DNA of 27,438 nucleotides from IMG/VR virus record IMGVR_UViG_3300035698_017672, positions 1 through 27,438 of that record. One strand, 5' to 3'. This stretch comes from a virus. The notes under the pieces are model-generated. The model was not told the DNA's origin. It searched no databases and saw nothing but the letters and a program-made list of their open reading frames with translations. Shown here one piece after another: positions 2,205-26,079 of this stretch. Position 1 is the first letter of the stretch. Every line of letters begins with the position of its first letter. A program made the position numbers and the translations under genes.

Positions 2205-5200
2205 TCATTTACCTTCTATTGCCTTTTCAGACAAAATAAGCCTTCTTAGATCAGTTGTATCTCCGGTCGAGAGATCAATAATTCCTTCCATTCCTCTTTT
2301 TAGCTGAGAGTATGGTACTTTAAGAAAAACTGCCAGTAAGAATAGAATATCAGGAGTTGCTTTATCCAATTTACCTGCTAGAATATTTTTTATCATATAG
2401 TTCCCATGTGATAACAAAGATGCCGCCGGACTAATAGAAGGATCATATCCTCTAACTCCTGACATAAACAAGTTTCCGATAATCGGTATAGATGATATGA
2501 AATTTCCAAAGACTGCATCAAACATTTCTTCTAAATCATCAGGCAATCTTCCATGTGACAATATAAAAGCTCCAACAGAAGAAACAACTATCGCAGCAAT
2601 ATCTTTAGATGATCTCTTAAACTCACCGGCTTTTAATTGTTGAGGAATTTCTTCGCTAGTTATATTCCAAATTTTGTTCATAAAATTCGTAAACATTAAT
2701 ATTGATCGCCAAAACTCGTCATTTGTTCGATACATTCTCGATAAATCTTTAATCGCTCCTTGCGGTTGAGTTTTCAACACAGTTTTTAAAGCAATATCTT
2801 TTGCCTCCGACTCTGACTTTGTTTTTCTTTGATTCCTATAAACAGCATCATACGCTGCAAGAACAGTATAGCTATCTACATTAGTAATCATCTGGGCACC
2901 TGATTTATCAATCGAAGCAAGAGCTATTCCAACTTTTCTTTTAAAATCACTATCAGGTAAATCTCTTATCTTACGTTGAATATCCCTAATGTCTCTGGTC
3001 GCAGCCCTATTTTTCAAAGAAGGTTCTTTAGCGTAAATTTCTTCTATTACCTTCTTAGAATTCGGATTCATCGGATTAAGTCGATATAAACTTGTTGTCA
3101 ATTCCTGAAGAGAAGTATTCTTCGCAACAAGAAAATACGAAAGAAATTGTTTTCCACTTGTTCCAACATTATACCAAAGATAAGCCGCTCGGATACCTTC
3201 TCTCACATGTTTCAAAATAGCATCATGCTCGCTTCTACCCATTGTCTGCGGGCGAATTACTGATTTAAGGTAATGGTTGAAATCTTCCCAAGCGTTCTCG
3301 GAATGATTATATGTTACCGCATCTCGAATCCCGGGATTATTTAACACTTGATTAAATGCTTTCTGCAATGCAGCAAAAGCAATAAAATGTTCCTGCTCGG
3401 CGATTCCATTAATTGCATCTTTTATAAAACTTGTACTCATTCTTGCATCAGAGTTTCCGACGACTTCTTCTCTTGTAATCGTTACTCTCTTGTCAACAGA
3501 CGTATAGCTAAATTCTTTCTCTGTACGCATAATAATATCGGGTAACATTTCTGTTATAATCTCTTTTGATTCTGAAAAAGATTTCTGCTTCCCTTCTTCC
3601 AGGAAATTAGTTATTCTAATCGGGAAATAAACTTTAACTCTATCAAACTTCCGGTTAAGAATACTCTCCGTGGTTTGCATTAACGCTGGATGTCTCTCGC
3701 CAACAATTTCCTGTACTTCATCAGCAAACTTTATATACTCTGGCTTTTCTTCTCTAAGTTTCTCTATAAACTCATTTACTGTTTCTTCTGATATCTTGTT
3801 CAAAGTAATTAGCGTATCTAAAGCATGTCCATCTTTCGTTGCCATATACATTCCAAGAATATCGTCAACTTGAAAAGTCTGATTCCCAACCTTTATTTTT
3901 TCACCTAATCCAAAAAATGTAATTTTATTTTTCTTCATTCGTTCATTTATTCTATTAGTTCTATTGGTATAGAAAATTCCTTCCGTAGTATCTGCAATAT
4001 GAATACTATCGTAAAATATTTTTTCTCCCAATTTCCCAAATATTTTATTTAACATATGCAAAGGATTCCTTGCCTTCATCAGCTTACCTTCTGCTTTATT
4101 AACTTTTCTTGATTTTTTCTCCTCAACAGTGTTCTTGGCAAATTGACCCGCTTCTGTTCCGCCCGCATTTTTTATTAATACTGCGTCAAGAATGGCTCTC
4201 GCAATATCCTGTTGCTCTTCTTTATCTTTAAATAATTTACGTCCTTCATCTTTAAGATTCGCTATAATTCCAGCAATTCGCTGAAGATTCTCGGTTGACA
4301 TATTACGGATAGATTGCTTCCTTTCCCCTTTTGTTTTTCCAAGTTGATCCAGCATTTCATCAATCCTTTTCTGATATTTAATATCAGTTACATTTTCCGG
4401 CATTTTTGGTTGCTTTAGGATAATATCAGTTAACTTTTCTCGTTTCTTTTTAGTAGCTGATATTTCAACTAACTTATTAACCCGTTTCTCAATCGCATCA
4501 AGCAATCTGGAAAACTTCTCATCATTCGATACATCGCCCTCTGTAACCTGACCGATTGTTCTAACAAACTTACCTCTATCGTGAAGAGTCAAAGATTTCA
4601 ATATATCGTTAATTACTTTAATTCTTTCTCTTAAAACTTCTTTTGTAGCTACTACACCCTTTTTAAATCCTCGTCTTATATTTCTTATCTTATCTTTAAG
4701 AATCGTAGTCTCACGTTTAGCGATTATTTTAGGTTTTAAATCAGCAACTTTTGCTTCCGACTTCTTATTAGATTCTCTTAATTCAACCAAGAAGTCAACT
4801 AAATCATTGGTTGTCGATCCTTCGGGTAAAATACGCATTGCCACAAGTTCATCTAATGCTTCATCAGCAGACAAAGAATTCTTATCTGTTGACGCAAAAA
4901 CAAATGGAATCGGTTGGACCTCTTCCGTAATATCAGGATTTTTGTTCTTATTAATCCGACCTCTCATAATGTCCATTAAATTACTTAATTCTTTCTTCTC
5001 GAATTCAGCAATATCAAGTTCATCTAAACGTCGCTGTTCTTTATTAATCTCCTCCTGCAATTTTCTATCAATATATGTTCCAAGTTTTGTTTTTCGAGAA
5101 GCGATTGCTTCCTTCTCAACAACTTCCCTAACTTCTTTCGCCATCGTCTCAACTTCAACGTTATCTTCAACGTTATCTGGGACTTCCGGATCTTCAATCA

Positions 5201-6377
5201 ATCCCTGCTCAACAAAAGAAGCATGTATATCTTTTAAAATATTTTTTTCATCGCCAGTCAATTCTTCTTTTGCCATGGCTTTAACGAGAAGAGCACTACG
5301 CTGTTGTTCTTCTTCAAAAGTTTTACCGCCTAAATCTATTATATTTTTAGATAATCCATCTATAACTTTATTCGTTTCTCCTAAAACATTCTCACCTGCT
5401 TTATTCATTAACTCATTAGTCTTAGTCGTAGCTTTTTTTTCATCTAATCCAGCACGAAGAAGTGCGTTCTTAATTTTTTGTTTTTGTATAGACGCCACAC
5501 TAACAGAGGCTGATCCGCCCAAAACAGCACCGAGAGAACCTGCATATAAGGATTGATAGAGAATATCTGAAAATTTATTTTTTTCTATACCAGAAAACTT
5601 TTTTATAAGCCCTTCAGCTCCAGTTTGAGAAAATTCTTGAATAAACTCAGAAACACTGCCTTTAATCCCACGTTTAATTATTCCACCACCTGAACTAATG
5701 ATAGAATGAATACCCCAAAATTCTAACCCTCCTTCAAATACTCCCAAGAGATCACTTATTACCCTTGCTTCGCCATATGTTTTATCTGCATCAAGTGCCT
5801 CTTTGTATCCGGTTGCTTTTGCGGATGCACCAAAAACAACACCTGGAAGAACCGCGCCACCAACCATTCCCATCGTTATTGAAGCAGCTAATGAAATAGA
5901 ACCAGCCCCTAAATCCTCAACAAATTTCAATGCTGTTGTTTTCTGTTCCGGAAAACCTGACGCTATAAATTGTTTATTAGTTTCAGATAACCTTGATCCA
6001 AAATCAGATATTCTTTCATCGATATCAGTATCTTCAAATATTCTTCTTTGAGACACCCTATTACCAGCTTGAATAATGCCAAAAGGAGTTAACCTATCTA
6101 TCCAAAATTTTGGACTAGAAAAATCTTCTTCATCAATACCTTTTCCCGAAACAGAATCTGCTCCAAGTTTTATTAAGTCGCCAGCTAATCCAGGAGCACT
6201 GCCAATAGCTTTTGAAATACCTTTCCCAGCCGCGTCAAGGTAGTCAATCATAGATGTTCGCACTTTTTTAACAGTACCGAAAGACTTCATTTCCTCGATA
6301 GTCATAGACGTACCTGCTGACTCTTTGCCATCAAGCTTACTCGCTAACATCTCATCTATTGTCATTGAATTATTCAT
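2205..6377 (-). CDS. Giant internal virion / ejection protein
   Basis: A 1390-residue product whose start overlaps the end of the 514-aa gene by 8 bases. Position (after the gp14-like and 514-aa proteins, before the fibre) and size match the largest podoviral ejection protein, the counterpart of T7 gp16 (1318 aa). The N-terminal 300 residues hold several Gly/Ala-rich hydrophobic stretches (for example ISLAASITMGMVGGAVLPGV near 160-180). The middle is long, charged and predicted helical. The C-terminal 350 residues contain MFTNFMNKIWN and further hydrophobic stretches (IAAIVVSSVGAFIL, ISSIPIIGNLF), which could enter the cell envelope during DNA ejection. I do not see the lytic transglycosylase domain that T7 gp16 carries. 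The C-terminal pattern recalls large polyvalent-type podoviral proteins; this is by memory only. Confidence 0.75.
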   Translation of the reverse strand: MNNSMTIDEMLASKLDGKESAGTSMTIEEMKSFGTVKKVRTSMIDYLDAAGKGISKAIGSAPGLAGDLIKLGADSVSGKGIDEEDFSSPKFWIDRLTPFGIIQAGNRVSQRRIFEDTDIDERISDFGSRLSETNKQFIASGFPEQKTTALKFVEDLGAGSISLAASITMGMVGGAVLPGVVFGASAKATGYKEALDADKTYGEARVISDLLGVFEGGLEFWGIHSIISSGGGIIKRGIKGSVSEFIQEFSQTGAEGLIKKFSGIEKNKFSDILYQSLYAGSLGAVLGGSASVSVASIQKQKIKNALLRAGLDEKKATTKTNELMNKAGENVLGETNKVIDGLSKNIIDLGGKTFEEEQQRSALLVKAMAKEELTGDEKNILKDIHASFVEQGLIEDPEVPDNVEDNVEVETMAKEVREVVEKEAIASRKTKLGTYIDRKLQEEINKEQRRLDELDIAEFEKKELSNLMDIMRGRINKNKNPDITEEVQPIPFVFASTDKNSLSADEALDELVAMRILPEGSTTNDLVDFLVELRESNKKSEAKVADLKPKIIAKRETTILKDKIRNIRRGFKKGVVATKEVLRERIKVINDILKSLTLHDRGKFVRTIGQVTEGDVSNDEKFSRLLDAIEKRVNKLVEISATKKKREKLTDIILKQPKMPENVTDIKYQKRIDEMLDQLGKTKGERKQSIRNMSTENLQRIAGIIANLKDEGRKLFKDKEEQQDIARAILDAVLIKNAGGTEAGQFAKNTVEEKKSRKVNKAEGKLMKARNPLHMLNKIFGKLGEKIFYDSIHIADTTEGIFYTNRTNRINERMKKNKITFFGLGEKIKVGNQTFQVDDILGMYMATKDGHALDTLITLNKISEETVNEFIEKLREEKPEYIKFADEVQEIVGERHPALMQTTESILNRKFDRVKVYFPIRITNFLEEGKQKSFSESKEIITEMLPDIIMRTEKEFSYTSVDKRVTITREEVVGNSDARMSTSFIKDAINGIAEQEHFIAFAALQKAFNQVLNNPGIRDAVTYNHSENAWEDFNHYLKSVIRPQTMGRSEHDAILKHVREGIRAAYLWYNVGTSGKQFLSYFLVAKNTSLQELTTSLYRLNPMNPNSKKVIEEIYAKEPSLKNRAATRDIRDIQRKIRDLPDSDFKRKVGIALASIDKSGAQMITNVDSYTVLAAYDAVYRNQRKTKSESEAKDIALKTVLKTQPQGAIKDLSRMYRTNDEFWRSILMFTNFMNKIWNITSEEIPQQLKAGEFKRSSKDIAAIVVSSVGAFILSHGRLPDDLEEMFDAVFGNFISSIPIIGNLFMSGVRGYDPSISPAASLLSHGNYMIKNILAGKLDKATPDILFLLAVFLKVPYSQLKRGMEGIIDLSTGDTTDLRRLILSEKAIEGK

Positions 6378-16902: not shown

Positions 16903-17351
16903 TATTTATCCCCTCTTATAACAACAACACTTTTCATATTCGGCTTAATCCATGAAATCGTTTTCGGGTTCTTAACTTTAAAAACATCTTTTATTCCTTT
17001 TAATATCAAACCCATCCGATCAGCCCTGATAGCAAAAACGTGCATATTCTCGCCATTCTCATCACTAACTTTTTCAAACATACCCGGATTCGTTAAGTCA
17101 ATCTTTTTCTTAACAATATTTTCTAACGTCAAATCCGTGACCATCATATAAATCGCAACCCCAACAAGCGTATTCCCTTCCCTCATATATACAACACGAT
17201 GCAAATTCTTATCAATGAACTGGATAACTTTCCCAATCGTTCCATATTTTCGTATCAGCTCAAATCCGGTATAAACATATTCTGCTATCTCGACAACGAG
17301 TAACACCCGTTCCCATTCTTCTGTACTTATTTTATTATTATCCAGTTTCAT
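16902..17351 (-). CDS. Hypothetical protein between terminase and portal, possibly GNAT-like
   Basis: A 149-residue product, 33 bases after the terminase stop, with a poor ribosome binding site. The pattern VVYMREGNTLVGVAIYMMVTD, then NMHVFAIRADRMGLILKGI, then PKTISWIKPNMKSVVVIRG has the beta-alpha-beta rhythm of a GNAT-type acyltransferase. Podoviruses often carry such small acyltransferase-like proteins at this place. I see no clear acetyl-CoA P-loop (Q/RxxGxG/A), so activity is doubtful. It may be a structural relative. Recognition is weak; the gene itself is well supported by the flanking overlaps. Confidence 0.55.
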   Translation of the reverse strand: MKLDNNKISTEEWERVLLVVEIAEYVYTGFELIRKYGTIGKVIQFIDKNLHRVVYMREGNTLVGVAIYMMVTDLTLENIVKKKIDLTNPGMFEKVSDENGENMHVFAIRADRMGLILKGIKDVFKVKNPKTISWIKPNMKSVVVIRGDK

Positions 17352-17384
17352 AAATTATACAATACTAATTTAATATTTCTTTCA

Positions 17385-19793
17385 TTATCCCCTAGTGTTA
17401 TCATACGGATCAAACTCGTGTTTCGTTTTATTCTGGCCACCTGAAATTTCTTTTAACCGCATTAATAATATCTCTTCTTTCGGAATATCGGGAACCGCAA
17501 ATGTCAAACAATTAGCTACAAGAATTCCATTAGCATAATAAACATTATCTTTCTCTACTGTTAAGTTATACGTTTCTTCCGAAACGATCTCCGTTTGAAC
17601 ACTTTCTGGAACAATATCTCTGAATCCTATATTTATTGATAAGAAATTTCTTGCCGCACACAATACATTGACACTCTTTTGTTTTATATTTTCTATATGA
17701 AAAATTTCGTTGACATTTTCTTGAGCAAAACCTTGTTCTATCTTTGAAAAAAGTTGTGATTTGTTTTCCGCAATGTTCACATTTATTACCTTTTTCTCTT
17801 TCTCGACTTTTCCAAATCTTTTTTCCATGTTCACTATGCCATATTCTTCCTTCTTCACTACCATGCCACTCGCTTGCTTTTTCTCTTGCTTTGTCCAAAT
17901 TCCTAATTTGTTTAATTCTGTACTTTCCGTCGTACCATAATTTCTTTGAATGGAGAGATTGATGCTTTCCAATTTTAATACATTCAAGATTTTCAATGGC
18001 ATTGTTAGTCCAATCACTGTCTTTATGATGTACTGCATAACCCTTTGGTATGCTTCCAAACTTTTCTGAATAAATCCTTCTGTGTAAAAGTCTCTCCTTG
18101 TCTTTTTTCCTCCCCGACTGGTAATATTTACCATTTGTTTGAAGCCAATACTTTTGTCCCGCATAAATAATCCATTGTGGATTGCCCATAAAAACCTCCT
18201 TAGTTTATTATCTGATTCTATTGTATCAGTTAACACTAAAGAGTCAAGACTCTTCCATCCCTCATTCCAGGTAAAAATCTTATGTTCGGGTTTTCCTTTG
18301 AGTTCGCTTCCATTAGAAAATTTAACAGTTGTAATTCTTTTAGCTTCTGACTTCCAGAGTTTTAATACTTTTCTATTCCCAAAAGGAGTAATAACAATAT
18401 CATCAACAGATATATTTTTTATTTCCTTTTTTCCGTCTACTGTTAAAATTAATGTATTTTTTACAAAACATAAGCTGTCCGCTAAATCAGGAGACCATCC
18501 CATCCGATCTTTTATCTGCCGTTTATCCTCTAACTGGAATTTCCCGTTATTAAACATATACGTCGGAGTCGTCAACTCAGTAACTAACTCCGGGATATTC
18601 GGCAACGATCCGCCTTTTTTAATCCATTCCGCCATCATAAACCACATATACGCACGGTTATTTTTATACCTTGCGTCTACCGCCGGCAAGTGAAACGCTA
18701 CCGCCAGTGGCGCGTGTCCAGCCGCGCGCATAACGTCTATCGCTCCATGCGCCCATCCAACAGTGTCATCAAATATCTCTAATTCACTTCCCCACCGTAC
18801 CTTCCCCATTATCGCCCGGTTTGCGATATCAACCGATACCGGCGAATCCCTCCGATGTCGCATCGTTACCGGAGTAAACGACTGTAACCCTTGGCGTGGG
18901 AACATACACGTTCTATCATTTCCGAACCGCGCAACGTCTATCCCTAACCTTTTCTGTGACCAATCGTAAACATCAACGCGGTACTTCCGTCTCATCGCTT
19001 CTCTGACTTCTTCCGGGCCAAGTAATGTATTTATCGACGACGGCGGGAACTTCCCAAATACATTAACTAACACCCACGGATTATCCCGTCCATACTTCTC
19101 AATCTGATCTTTCGCCCATTTAATATCTATCCTCGGCGACCGGTTCGGATCATCAGGATCACCCGTTATCTCCGTAACATGCCATAAGTGTGCTTCACTC
19201 GTACACGCTCGATATAACGGCCCTTCCGTATGCGTCGGGTTTCCTCCCATCAATATCTTCGTTTCAATACCCGTAGCTAACCCCGCTTCAGCCGCCGCCA
19301 TTACCGCATCAGGGAACCCGCCAACTTCATCTAATATAAACAGCATATAATCCGAATGTAACCCCGCCAACGTATCCGCCTGCTGCGTCGTATCCGCCGT
19401 CTTCGACCACGTTCTCGCACTCATAAACCACGTTTCCGGCGATTCCCGGCACACTATCCTCGTCTTCGTCCACTGGAACATCTGCTTCAAAAACTGGCTC
19501 CGGTTTATCCATTTCGCCAGCTCCGGCCATAAACAATCACTTAAGTTATCCGACGTTATCGACGTCGCAGCTATCTTCGGGTGCGGACGCGTCGCTAGAA
19601 AATTTAACGCACACCATGACTCGACCGTCGTCTTCCCCGGACCTTTACACGCTTTCATCGCTAACCGGTTCTTCGTAGGAAACGCTTCTAAAACCCCGGC
19701 CTGCCACCGGTCCGGCTCCGCCCCAAGGCACTCCCTCACAAACAGGATCGGACTCTCTCGCCATCGCCGAATCTTATCCGTCGCTACACTCAT
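17385..19793 (-). CDS. terL: Terminase large subunit, interrupted by an intein
   Basis: An 802-codon frame encodes the DNA-packaging ATPase and nuclease. ATPase: Walker A-like CKGPGKTT (residues 49-56) and Walker B LFILDE (151-156). RNase H-fold nuclease: GIDVARFGNDRT (284-295), FDDT (341-344), and the third acidic motif DLADSL (436-441). Directly after L441 an intein of 320 residues begins (C442 to N761), and the terminase resumes at C762 with CLTFAVPDIPKE. The spliced product would be 482 residues, a normal size. The insertion is within the conserved nuclease motif, so the unspliced protein should be inactive as a nuclease. The gene follows the small subunit after 9 bases. Flanking terminase DNA is visibly richer in CG than the AT-rich intein. 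Confidence 0.95.
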   Translation of the reverse strand: MSVATDKIRRWRESPILFVRECLGAEPDRWQAGVLEAFPTKNRLAMKACKGPGKTTVESWCALNFLATRPHPKIAATSITSDNLSDCLWPELAKWINRSQFLKQMFQWTKTRIVCRESPETWFMSARTWSKTADTTQQADTLAGLHSDYMLFILDEVGGFPDAVMAAAEAGLATGIETKILMGGNPTHTEGPLYRACTSEAHLWHVTEITGDPDDPNRSPRIDIKWAKDQIEKYGRDNPWVLVNVFGKFPPSSINTLLGPEEVREAMRRKYRVDVYDWSQKRLGIDVARFGNDRTCMFPRQGLQSFTPVTMRHRRDSPVSVDIANRAIMGKVRWGSELEIFDDTVGWAHGAIDVMRAAGHAPLAVAFHLPAVDARYKNNRAYMWFMMAEWIKKGGSLPNIPELVTELTTPTYMFNNGKFQLEDKRQIKDRMGWSPDLADSLCFVKNTLILTVDGKKEIKNISVDDIVITPFGNRKVLKLWKSEAKRITTVKFSNGSELKGKPEHKIFTWNEGWKSLDSLVLTDTIESDNKLRRFLWAIHNGLFMRDKSIGFKQMVNITSRGGKKTRRDFYTEGFIQKSLEAYQRVMQYIIKTVIGLTMPLKILNVLKLESINLSIQRNYGTTESTELNKLGIWTKQEKKQASGMVVKKEEYGIVNMEKRFGKVEKEKKVINVNIAENKSQLFSKIEQGFAQENVNEIFHIENIKQKSVNVLCAARNFLSINIGFRDIVPESVQTEIVSEETYNLTVEKDNVYYANGILVANCLTFAVPDIPKEEILLMRLKEISGGQNKTKHEFDPYDNTRG
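17566..18189 (-). CDS. HNH homing endonuclease nested out of frame in the intein
   Basis: A 207-residue product in a different frame of the same strand from terL. HNH_3-type core: YAVHHKDSDWTNNAIENLEC (residues 51-70; H54, H55, N63, N67), then KHQSLHS (H76). Residues 100-130 (AREKASEWHGSEEG, IWHSEHGKK) are a helical linker I know from phage HNH enzymes. Two zinc fingers follow: C137-x2-C140, C155-x3-C159 and C175-x2-C178, C193-x3-C197. It starts with ATG 18189 behind AAGGAGG and ends in block F of the intein. It should nick or cut intein-less terL alleles to spread the element. It is a normal HNH protein by sequence, so it is the real product and the terL frame here is the passenger. Confidence 0.92.
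   Translation of the reverse strand: MGNPQWIIYAGQKYWLQTNGKYYQSGRKKDKERLLHRRIYSEKFGSIPKGYAVHHKDSDWTNNAIENLECIKIGKHQSLHSKKLWYDGKYRIKQIRNLDKAREKASEWHGSEEGRIWHSEHGKKIWKSREREKGNKCEHCGKQITTFFKDRTRFCSRKCQRNFSYRKYKTKECQCIVCGKKFLINKYRIQRYCSRKCSNGDRFGRNV
18195..18201 (-). promoter_or_regulatory. Ribosome binding site of nested HNH gene
   Basis: AAGGAGG on the minus strand, five T residues before ATG 18189. In the terL frame the same bases read K-L-R-R, so a full-strength internal initiation site is embedded in intein coding sequence. This decides the HNH start and argues for independent translation rather than frameshifting. Confidence 0.85.
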
Positions 19794-24162: not shown

Positions 24163-24198
24163 CTCCGCTTTGCCTAATAAGCATTGCGGGGTTTTTTT
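24163..24198 (+). terminator. Rho-independent terminator of rightward unit
   Basis: CTCCGC-TT-TGC pairs with GCA-TT-GCGGGG around CTAATAA, followed by seven T. It lies 25 bases after the HTH gene. An alternative hairpin CGGAG/CTCCG (24153-24167) precedes it. The last codon of the convergent CHC2 gene lies inside the T-run. Confidence 0.85.
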
Positions 24199-24736
24199 AT
24201 TGTTTCAGCAGGAATTTTATCGCATCAGGGAAGTTAAACTCATGCAGTTTTTTAATAAAAGCTATCGCATCGCCACCGAATTGACAACTAAAACAATAAA
24301 ATGTATTATTTCCCCGGTAAATAAAGAATGAGCCTACTTTTTCCGGGTGAAACGGACAGCAAGCATTAAGTCGTTCCTGGCTAATATGTTGCTTTTCGAA
24401 ATCGTATAGATCAATAATAGGCACATTTTTAGCCTGCTCTATCATGGCATCAGTGATTTTATTGCATTGTGGGGCATCTAGGGACGTTAAAATTATCTTA
24501 TTTCTGCGGATCAGGTGTTCTATTGCGTCGGGATTATATAAGATACGCATACATGCTAATAAAAAAGTCTCGGTAAAGTCGTCATAATACCGATTACGGA
24601 TAGATTTACAGTGCAATAAGTAAGGCTTGATCGCTGATTTTAAGCACCGATTAACGCGCGGGATCATCGCCCGGCACTCATCCGGGAATGTTTCGGTTAT
24701 CTGAGTTATAGTTAGATTATTTAGATTATTTTTCAT
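24197..24736 (-). CDS. CHC2 zinc-finger primase-like protein
   Basis: A 179-residue product whose start overlaps the helicase stop by 4 bases (ATGA). Residues 127-151 are a DnaG-type CHC2 zinc finger with exact spacing (C127-x2-H130-x17-C148-x2-C151: CCPFHPEK, FYCFSC), followed by GGDAIAFIKKLHEFNFPDAI as in DnaG. The first 110 residues are helical and not recognised. There is no TOPRIM catalytic domain, so this is only the template-recognition part of a bacterial primase, perhaps supplying DNA sequence recognition to the helicase encoded upstream, or acting with a catalytic subunit outside the window. Confidence 0.85.
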   Translation of the reverse strand: MKNNLNNLTITQITETFPDECRAMIPRVNRCLKSAIKPYLLHCKSIRNRYYDDFTETFLLACMRILYNPDAIEHLIRRNKIILTSLDAPQCNKITDAMIEQAKNVPIIDLYDFEKQHISQERLNACCPFHPEKVGSFFIYRGNNTFYCFSCQFGGDAIAFIKKLHEFNFPDAIKFLLKQ

Positions 24737-26079
24737 TCAAAAATACTCGGGAACTTGATTCCTTGCCATGATTTTACTTGGATTCCGTTCACGTAAGGAC
24801 GGCTGCTTAAGATATTGTTTCGTTGCATATACTCTGAGATAACTTTTTGGCTTTTATGATACCCATTTATTTCTTTAAATTTACGTTTGAAAGAATTCAC
24901 CGGGATATTCCCTTGCTCATCAGTAACGCAATAATCCCGGATAAACTGGCCAAGATCATCCTCCTCATCCTGATAATTACAAGTAGCATCAAATATTTCT
25001 TTCGGAGTATTAAGCCCGGTTTCTAGCCATCTCTTATATCCCCGGACGGCCCAAATTAATATCCCCGGAAGTTCAGTTTTTAATTTATCCCCAAGATTCC
25101 GGTCATCATTTTTATCTGTTATCCTAAGATTAAAAGGTATCATCCGAATTCTTCGCCAGATACCTATATCAGTCCCCCTGATATTAGGCTTATGATTGGT
25201 AGCAATAAAGATTTTAAAAGTCGGGCTGAACTCAAAAAACTCTTTATGAAGAAACCGCGCGGTTATCTTATCACTCCCAGTTAATGATTTTACCAAAGAC
25301 TCATCAAGCGTCACATTCTGGTTATTTTCGGTAGCAGTAACGAACCTGGCCCCTTTCAGCGTAGCAACGTCATTTGGTATGCCTCCAACGAAATCTTTGC
25401 GTATGAGGGCATTCTGTGGACAATTTACAGCGTAATCCCCTAACATTTTAGTGATTGTATTGATAAATATAGATTTTCCGTTCCGGCCACAACCATAAAG
25501 GATAAATAAGCATTGCTCTTTAGTTGAAGCTGTTAAAGAATAACCGATAACACGCTGCATAAAATCGATAATATTCTGATTCCCCAAGAATATATCATCA
25601 AGGAATTTAAGCCATAAAGGACATTCGGCCCGACCATTGAATTCAACGCTAGCCATTTTTGTTAGAAGATCATCCGGGTTGAAGGGGTGACACCTGATTT
25701 TTCCATCCGGCCCCGGAACTATATCCAGCGTTTTATTAGTTAAATTTATCAGGTTATCTCGTGCGTCAAAATTATTTTGCGATTCACCTAGGAACGCTTT
25801 AGTGCAGTCCAGCATTGCTTCTAGTTTAGCATTTGCCCCGGAAGTTTTAACATGCCGTGCGAACTGTTCCTGCTGACTATTATCGCCAAAAAAATCTTGC
25901 AAATCAAGCTGAAGCTGGCGGTGTAACTCGACTGCATAAGATTTTATCCGGTTATTAGTATCACGTTCCCATATTCTACCATTATAAATAAACCATCCAC
26001 CGTAATCACGGGACCAGCGAACTTTATCTCCAAACATTTTACAAAATTTCTCAGCGTTGGATATATCACAATAGAGCAT
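24733..26079 (-). CDS. D5-type SF3 primase-helicase
   Basis: A 448-residue product; ATG 26079 behind AAAGGATTA. Residues 8-155 form a D5_N domain (NAEKFCKMFGDKVRWSRDYG, GWFIYNGRIWERD). The SF3 ATPase has Walker A GCGRNGKS (196-203), a Walker B region GARFVTATEN (243-252) and motif C FKIFIATNHKPNI (288-300), then an arginine-finger region GIWRRIRMIPF. Residues 388-448 are a winged-helix-like end shared with the 119-aa protein at 21181-21540. No primase catalytic domain precedes it, unlike P4 alpha. It is the replicative helicase, in an operon with a nuclease and a CHC2 protein. Confidence 0.92.
   Translation of the reverse strand: MLYCDISNAEKFCKMFGDKVRWSRDYGGWFIYNGRIWERDTNNRIKSYAVELHRQLQLDLQDFFGDNSQQEQFARHVKTSGANAKLEAMLDCTKAFLGESQNNFDARDNLINLTNKTLDIVPGPDGKIRCHPFNPDDLLTKMASVEFNGRAECPLWLKFLDDIFLGNQNIIDFMQRVIGYSLTASTKEQCLFILYGCGRNGKSIFINTITKMLGDYAVNCPQNALIRKDFVGGIPNDVATLKGARFVTATENNQNVTLDESLVKSLTGSDKITARFLHKEFFEFSPTFKIFIATNHKPNIRGTDIGIWRRIRMIPFNLRITDKNDDRNLGDKLKTELPGILIWAVRGYKRWLETGLNTPKEIFDATCNYQDEEDDLGQFIRDYCVTDEQGNIPVNSFKRKFKEINGYHKSQKVISEYMQRNNILSSRPYVNGIQVKSWQGIKFPSIFE

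Follow-up and report, generated by a model that had tools for sequence, protein, structure and literature searches.

The analysed window, a stretch of 27,438 nucleotides of viral DNA, carries a gene for the large terminase subunit (TerL) that contains an intein, and within the intein-coding part of this gene lies a second gene, which encodes an HNH endonuclease in another reading frame (Table 1). The preliminary description of this DNA had reported an 802-codon terL frame that stays open from end to end with intein blocks on both sides of the insert, as well as a complete 207-codon HNH gene on the same strand but in another frame. Both observations hold: the ORF is uninterrupted, the Pfam family Intein_splicing matches residues 460-761 of the terL frame (E 1e-10), and the HNH gene, at offset 2, matches the Pfam family HNH_3 at its residues 34-72 (E 6e-13). 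The start of the HNH ORF corresponds approximately to intein residue 94, and the stop overlaps block F, as had been claimed, the TAA codon lying at the start of this block.

Table 1. Features of the terL locus in the window (positions are those of the whole stretch)
Feature	Position	Strand	Remarks
terL, TerL	17385-19793	-	One open frame, 802 codons
TerL N-extein, residues 1-441	18471..19793	-	ORF; PHROG terminase matches
Intein, terL frame, C442-N761 = C1-N320, 320 residues	17511..18470	-	Defined by Intein_splicing, flanks and an empty-site relative
Intein block A, CFVKNTLILTVDG	18432..18470	-	C1 invariant in 36 aligned inteins
Intein block B region	18270..18305	-	His63 present; Lys60 where most relatives carry Thr
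Intein blocks F and G, YNLTVEKDNVYYANGILVAN	17511..17582	-	Penultimate residue Ala, not His
TerL C-extein	17385..17510	-	First residue is the +1 nucleophile Cys
HNH endonuclease gene, 207 codons	17566..18189	-	Nested in the intein; other frame, same strand; offset 2 relative to terL
HNH core, residues 36-80	17950..18084	-	Invariant H36, H54, H55, N62, N63, H76 and H80
Two CxxC...CxxxC zinc-ribbon-like elements	17599..17781	-	C137/C140/C155/C159 and C175/C178/C193/C197
Shine-Dalgarno-like sequence, TAAGGAGG	18195..18202	-	5 nt upstream of the HNH ATG; 8-nt match

Three other regions of the window, all on the minus strand, were annotated in passing. Positions 24197-26079 hold a D5_N/DUF5906 primase-helicase gene and then an ORF that overlaps it and has a C-terminal CHC2 DnaG-type zinc ribbon; the zinc-finger and helicase parts are thus separate genes in that order. 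The ORF at 1193-2140 contains a repetitive AEAAETNAETAETNAEAAK stretch and has no Pfam match; it likely encodes a coiled, tail-fibre-like protein. A 1,390-residue ORF at 2205-6377, also without a Pfam match, is virion-like in size and position.

Relatives of the N-extein are annotated as the terminase large subunit, with about 50% identity in Xanthomonas phages. The intein interrupts the C-terminal SPDLADSL/CLTFA stretch of TerL (the slash marks the insertion point), and its junctions read SPDLADSL/CF...ILVAN/CLTFA, so that splicing would leave a 482-aa extein. The intein-free relative L007 reads SPDLGDGL/ALTF at the insertion point, with Ala where the invaded terL has the splicing Cys, and this uninterrupted sequence fixes the ends of the intein. 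Base composition also changes at the insert: GC content at the three codon positions is 0.50/0.46/0.54 in the exteins versus 0.34/0.33/0.20 in the N-terminal part of the intein.

Most elements of a splicing domain are in place. The N-terminal nucleophile C1 stands at the start of block A, and the C-terminal N320 is followed by Cys at +1, although the penultimate Ala deviates from the usual His. Block B reads KPEH rather than T-x-x-H, which is a variant residue and not a missing block; since Lys replaces this Thr, we file the intein as one with a deviating block B and not as a textbook class 1 intein. The two deviations make the efficiency of splicing uncertain, though both are common to the nearest relative, L026. 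In the AlphaFold model, the intein ends are confidently predicted (pLDDT 91-98 for residues 1-90 and 94-96 for residues 291-320), and the spacer between them is predicted to be disordered, with pLDDT 38-56 nearly throughout. The modelled ends adopt a HINT fold, matching intein structures, including gp41-1, at VIA Z 19.5-19.8 and rmsd 1.2-1.5 over 121-123 residues. A further match of the terL frame, to phrog_35162, spans the HNH region (residues 581-763); it may be a shadow of HNH conservation together with blocks F and G, or may reflect another nested intein.

The HNH gene is complete. Its core is intact, and across 30 aligned sequences the residues of the zinc-ribbon-like elements are invariant or nearly so. 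Its AlphaFold model has a mean pLDDT of 92.6, and the best VIA match is the homing endonuclease I-HmuI (Z 7.9, rmsd 2.9, 75 residues); together with the HNH_3 match and the invariant His and Asn residues, this identifies an HNH catalytic core. Thus, both products are predicted by modelling to have an intact fold. The third frame of the HNH stretch contains 21 stops. An assembly error that hides an indel was rejected, since the window and the IMG/VR contig L001 are 99.99% identical over 8,646 nt in an ungapped alignment with a single mismatch. A scan of genome contigs with the HNH of the window found no relative.

To place this locus among its relatives, we used 161 distinct HNH loci, obtained by profile and single-protein scans of IMG/VR, phage records and one haloarchaeal plasmid; as the loci were collected via their HNH, the sample consists of HNH-bearing loci. 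Each locus was classified by running profiles of both intein halves on stop-masked frames, which makes the assignment to nested or split independent of stops. The half-intein profiles were themselves built from an initial nested set defined by the absence of stops, and a stop-blind repetition agreed. Both intein halves flank the HNH in 141 of the 161 loci. The host frame is open and out of frame with the HNH in 130 of these 141, with 112 in the layout of the window, where the host frame is at +1 of the HNH (d1), and 18 with the host frame at +2 (d2). The remaining 11 are split inteins, which have at least 8 stops or have their halves in different frames. In none of the 141 intein-flanked loci does the HNH share one frame with both intein halves.

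The nested loci follow a common plan. The HNH ORF extends from about residue 86 of the intein to 18 residues short of its end, and 129 of the 130 loci retain the terminal Asn, as 129 retain Cys or Ser at +1. Their host proteins belong mainly to TerL families, and these terminases are often less than 25% identical to each other. Among cultured or named phages, the continuous layout is seen in Tetrasphaera phage TJE1, Acinetobacter phage Highwayman and Rhodobacteraceae phage LS06-2018-MD07, in all three of which the terminase is annotated as a single gene. The proposal that the HNH is nested out of frame, with selection holding the second frame open, is thus borne out by 130 relatives that are open and out of phase. 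An indel or stops in relatives, which would have spoken against it, were looked for and not found: there is no indel relative to L001, the host frame is stop-free in the 130 relatives, and in none of them is the HNH in frame. The view of the arrangement as a singular oddity had to be abandoned, as a large family is normally laid out in this way, and one passing mention, for brucellaphages, had been published (PMC4422536).

Several individual loci deserve a separate record. Split terL genes occur in L013 and L014 (Vibrio phages 1.238.A and 1.245.O), L021 (Lactobacillus phage CL2), L039, L077, L085, L091, L092 and L093; the order in these nine loci is an annotated or open terL that ends in the N-intein, a homologous HNH gene, and a short ORF that opens with the C-intein and the TerL C-terminus. 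In CL2 this last piece (L021:2487-2771) carries no annotation. The terL of L013 (1212-4088) seemingly contains a second, in-frame intein of canonical length near Walker A (ends VTHN/TTVLHEY). In L104 and L105 the nested architecture occupies another terminase site, FHGGW/C...N/CDE, apparently the ATPase Walker B motif. L106, the Halobacterium sp. GSL-19 plasmid pGSL19_54.9, has a terL-like gene with a nested out-of-frame HNH at 2424-4736; this gene is annotated solely as a Hint domain-containing protein and adjoins portal and capsid genes, which marks a phage-like archaeal element. In L020 (Brevundimonas phage Poludnitsa), an unannotated free-standing HNH gene lies between terL and portal at approximately 4001-4447.

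On the HNH tree nested, split and free genes are intermingled, such that the groups need 18 changes; the deep branches are weak. The HNH, intein and extein distances are intercorrelated (Mantel r 0.57-0.65), and vertical inheritance therefore contributes part of the spread. As a point against homing, no pair of strains with and without the element was found inside one phage lineage, the intein-free L007 being 76% identical at best.

HNH proteins assist packaging in some phages, and free-standing homologues of the present one adjoin terminase genes in Shemara, PAE1, EauM-23 and BP10. The main function of the HNH could accordingly be partnership with the terminase instead of homing, a possibility also raised by the authors of the brucellaphage study (PMC4422536). 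We regard this as unlikely: the patchy distribution, the use of several terminase sites, the existence of element-free relatives and the placement inside an intein suit homing better, and the best solved match is a homing enzyme, I-HmuI.

A somewhat less likely alternative is that the overlap is accidental or decaying, that is, a mini-intein with a long spacer in which the HNH ORF is dead or was never translated. The atypical splicing residues at two positions would fit such decay, and so would the statistics of the window gene taken by itself. The preliminary description had put the chance of 207 sense codons at (61/64)^207; the arithmetic is correct (4.8e-5), but this is not the best null model. 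Within-gene synonymous permutation, from which all expected stop counts given here were derived, predicts 2.0 host-frame stops in the window gene with P(0)=0.047, and the probability of no stop is 0.0064 with random synonymous codons, 0.0002 with GC3-weighted codons, and 0.0009 from the stop rate of non-nested homologues. As these single-gene values are only moderately low, the case rests on the relatives. The 112 d1-nested genes contain no d1 stops versus 214 expected, and 1,929 d2 stops versus 1,939 expected. Conversely, the 18 d2-nested genes contain no d2 stops versus 139 expected, and 150 d1 stops versus 129 expected. The free-standing homologues show no depletion (104 d1 stops versus 102 expected). 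Thus, each set avoids stops only in the frame of its own intein.

For 36 independent d1 pairs, the conservation of the two frames was compared. Differences per site at positions 1, 2 and 3 of the HNH codons amount to 0.29, 0.26 and 0.49, respectively, and the identity of the HNH exceeds that of the host frame in all 36 pairs. Over the HNH gene, the host frame and the unused frame are equally identical, and the possibility that the spacer is conserved as a protein was rejected because the host frame is no better conserved than the unused one. Substitutions track HNH codons, so that what the host frame provides across the HNH is a spacer devoid of stops. As judged from these comparisons, the HNH is under protein-level selection, and the host frame across it need merely remain open. 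The earlier notion of dual coding therefore applies only in a weak form: protein conservation is seen in the HNH frame, and in the intein frame across it nothing but the absence of stops is maintained. An accidental or decaying overlap is further opposed by the intact catalytic and zinc residues, by the strong ribosome-binding site in the window, by an HNH frame that is the protein-conserved one across dozens of pairs, and by an arrangement kept in 112 loci.

Expression of the HNH could proceed from its own start or by programmed ribosomal frameshifting from terL, the latter giving a TerL-IntN-HNH fusion. Frameshifting would agree with the location of the HNH in the -1 frame of terL in 112 of the 130 relatives. 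However, this d1 preference is explained by stop content, for d1 in non-nested HNH genes has threefold fewer stops than d2 (approximately 3.4 versus 9.8 per 100 codons), and 18 relatives use the other frame. An HNH-frame stop also precedes the first start codon by a median of 12 nt and lies within 30 nt of it in 116 of the 130 loci; in the window it is the TAA at 18207-18205, 15 nt upstream of the ATG. A stop so near the start leaves almost no room for a frameshifted fusion, and in the window the gap between this stop and the start holds a textbook Shine-Dalgarno sequence. Of 70 nested loci, 29 show a Shine-Dalgarno match of at least 5 nt ahead of the HNH, with 7.7 expected; a clear one is missing from roughly half of the nested relatives. 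On these sequence features, frameshifting is very improbable, and internal initiation would be the simplest route to the HNH protein. That the insert is instead a self-splicing RNA intron with an HNH gene is scarcely credible: phage group I introns often carry HNH homing genes, but the host frame is open through the entire insert and encodes complete intein motifs, and no Rfam group I or II intron match was found in 17300-18700, even at E values up to 1.

We consider it very probable that the window carries a mobile cis-splicing intein in TerL with a homing endonuclease that is specified by another frame and has an internal start of translation. We infer splicing, internal initiation, cleavage and homing to proceed as follows. 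The intein would lie within the nuclease portion at the C-terminus of the large terminase of the phage, with the loop between blocks B and F filled by the separate HNH gene in the other reading frame. Ribosomes that read terL would cross the HNH gene in the wrong frame and produce a floppy spacer of approximately 180 residues; the intein would then fold from both ends, excise itself and ligate the TerL halves. Other ribosomes would use the internal Shine-Dalgarno sequence to begin translation of the HNH protein, and this enzyme would cut intein-free terL so that the whole intein is copied in; the intein-free terL of L007 is a candidate target for this cleavage. Selection on the HNH protein, along with selection against stops in the terL frame, would keep both frames together.

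Comparison with known systems sets this arrangement apart in several respects: (i) the window resembles canonical inteins in having an endonuclease placed between blocks B and F of a splicing domain, but in canonical inteins the two share a frame, and here the endonuclease is a separate protein in another frame (offset 2); (ii) in fractured genes, split-intein halves flank an independent endonuclease gene (Dassa 2009, as cited in PMC8228797 and PMC10448857), a layout found in 11 relatives with homologous HNHs, and the best-matching structures include the gp41-1 intein, whereas the window has a single 802-codon frame that would splice in cis and an endonuclease inside the open frame rather than in a gap; and (iii) the ShiLan element, an out-of-frame HNH insertion in mycobacteriophage methylases (PMC11855218, 2025), resembles the window in its zinc fingers, open host frame and presumed homing. 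The ShiLan element differs from the window in its host gene, in having no splicing domain and in that its authors found no ribosome-binding site (PMC11855218), whereas the window has a full splicing domain, and hence is not of the ShiLan type, and a strong ribosome-binding site. I-HmuI (1u3e), the closest solved structure to the HNH core, is an HNH homing endonuclease of a group I intron; it is intron-encoded, and its C-terminal half differs from that of the window HNH with its two zinc-ribbon-like elements.

The nearest precedent is the intein-encoded HNH gene out of frame within terL of brucellaphages (PMC4422536, 2015). This case occupies a few sentences of that paper, which gives no intein anatomy, no relatives and no frame statistics and proposes no class, and its likeness to the window rests on the statement of its authors (PMC4422536). 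A survey of mycobacteriophage inteins locates terminase inteins in the ATPase domain, and the available portion of its text does not describe the nested arrangement (PMC5050341). A search limited to the open-access literature found no description of inteins with out-of-frame endonucleases as a class. The window thus belongs to a class of which single cases were noticed earlier; what appears to be new is the breadth, the use of two frames and the avoidance of stops specific to each of them.

More generally, it seems rather likely, with less assurance than for the window itself, that terminase inteins with an out-of-frame endonuclease form a large phage class in which nesting arose in two frames and stops are purged from the frame of the intein, and that many seemingly endonuclease-free phage inteins are hidden homing elements that grade into split inteins upon loss of the host frame. 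The split relatives hint at a path that links the continuous form of intein with the split one. Because surveys score an intein as endonuclease-free by the intein frame alone, nested HNHs can be misread if the preferred reading, a mobile intein with an out-of-frame endonuclease, is true. In that case a large set of phage inteins, here 130 loci including one on an archaeal plasmid, would be open to such misreading. The d1- and d2-nested sub-classes, each purged of stops in the frame opposite to that of the other, would then constitute a natural experiment on the origin and upkeep of overlapping genes, and since the overlap demands only a stop-free frame, the cost of becoming dual-coding would be directly measurable.
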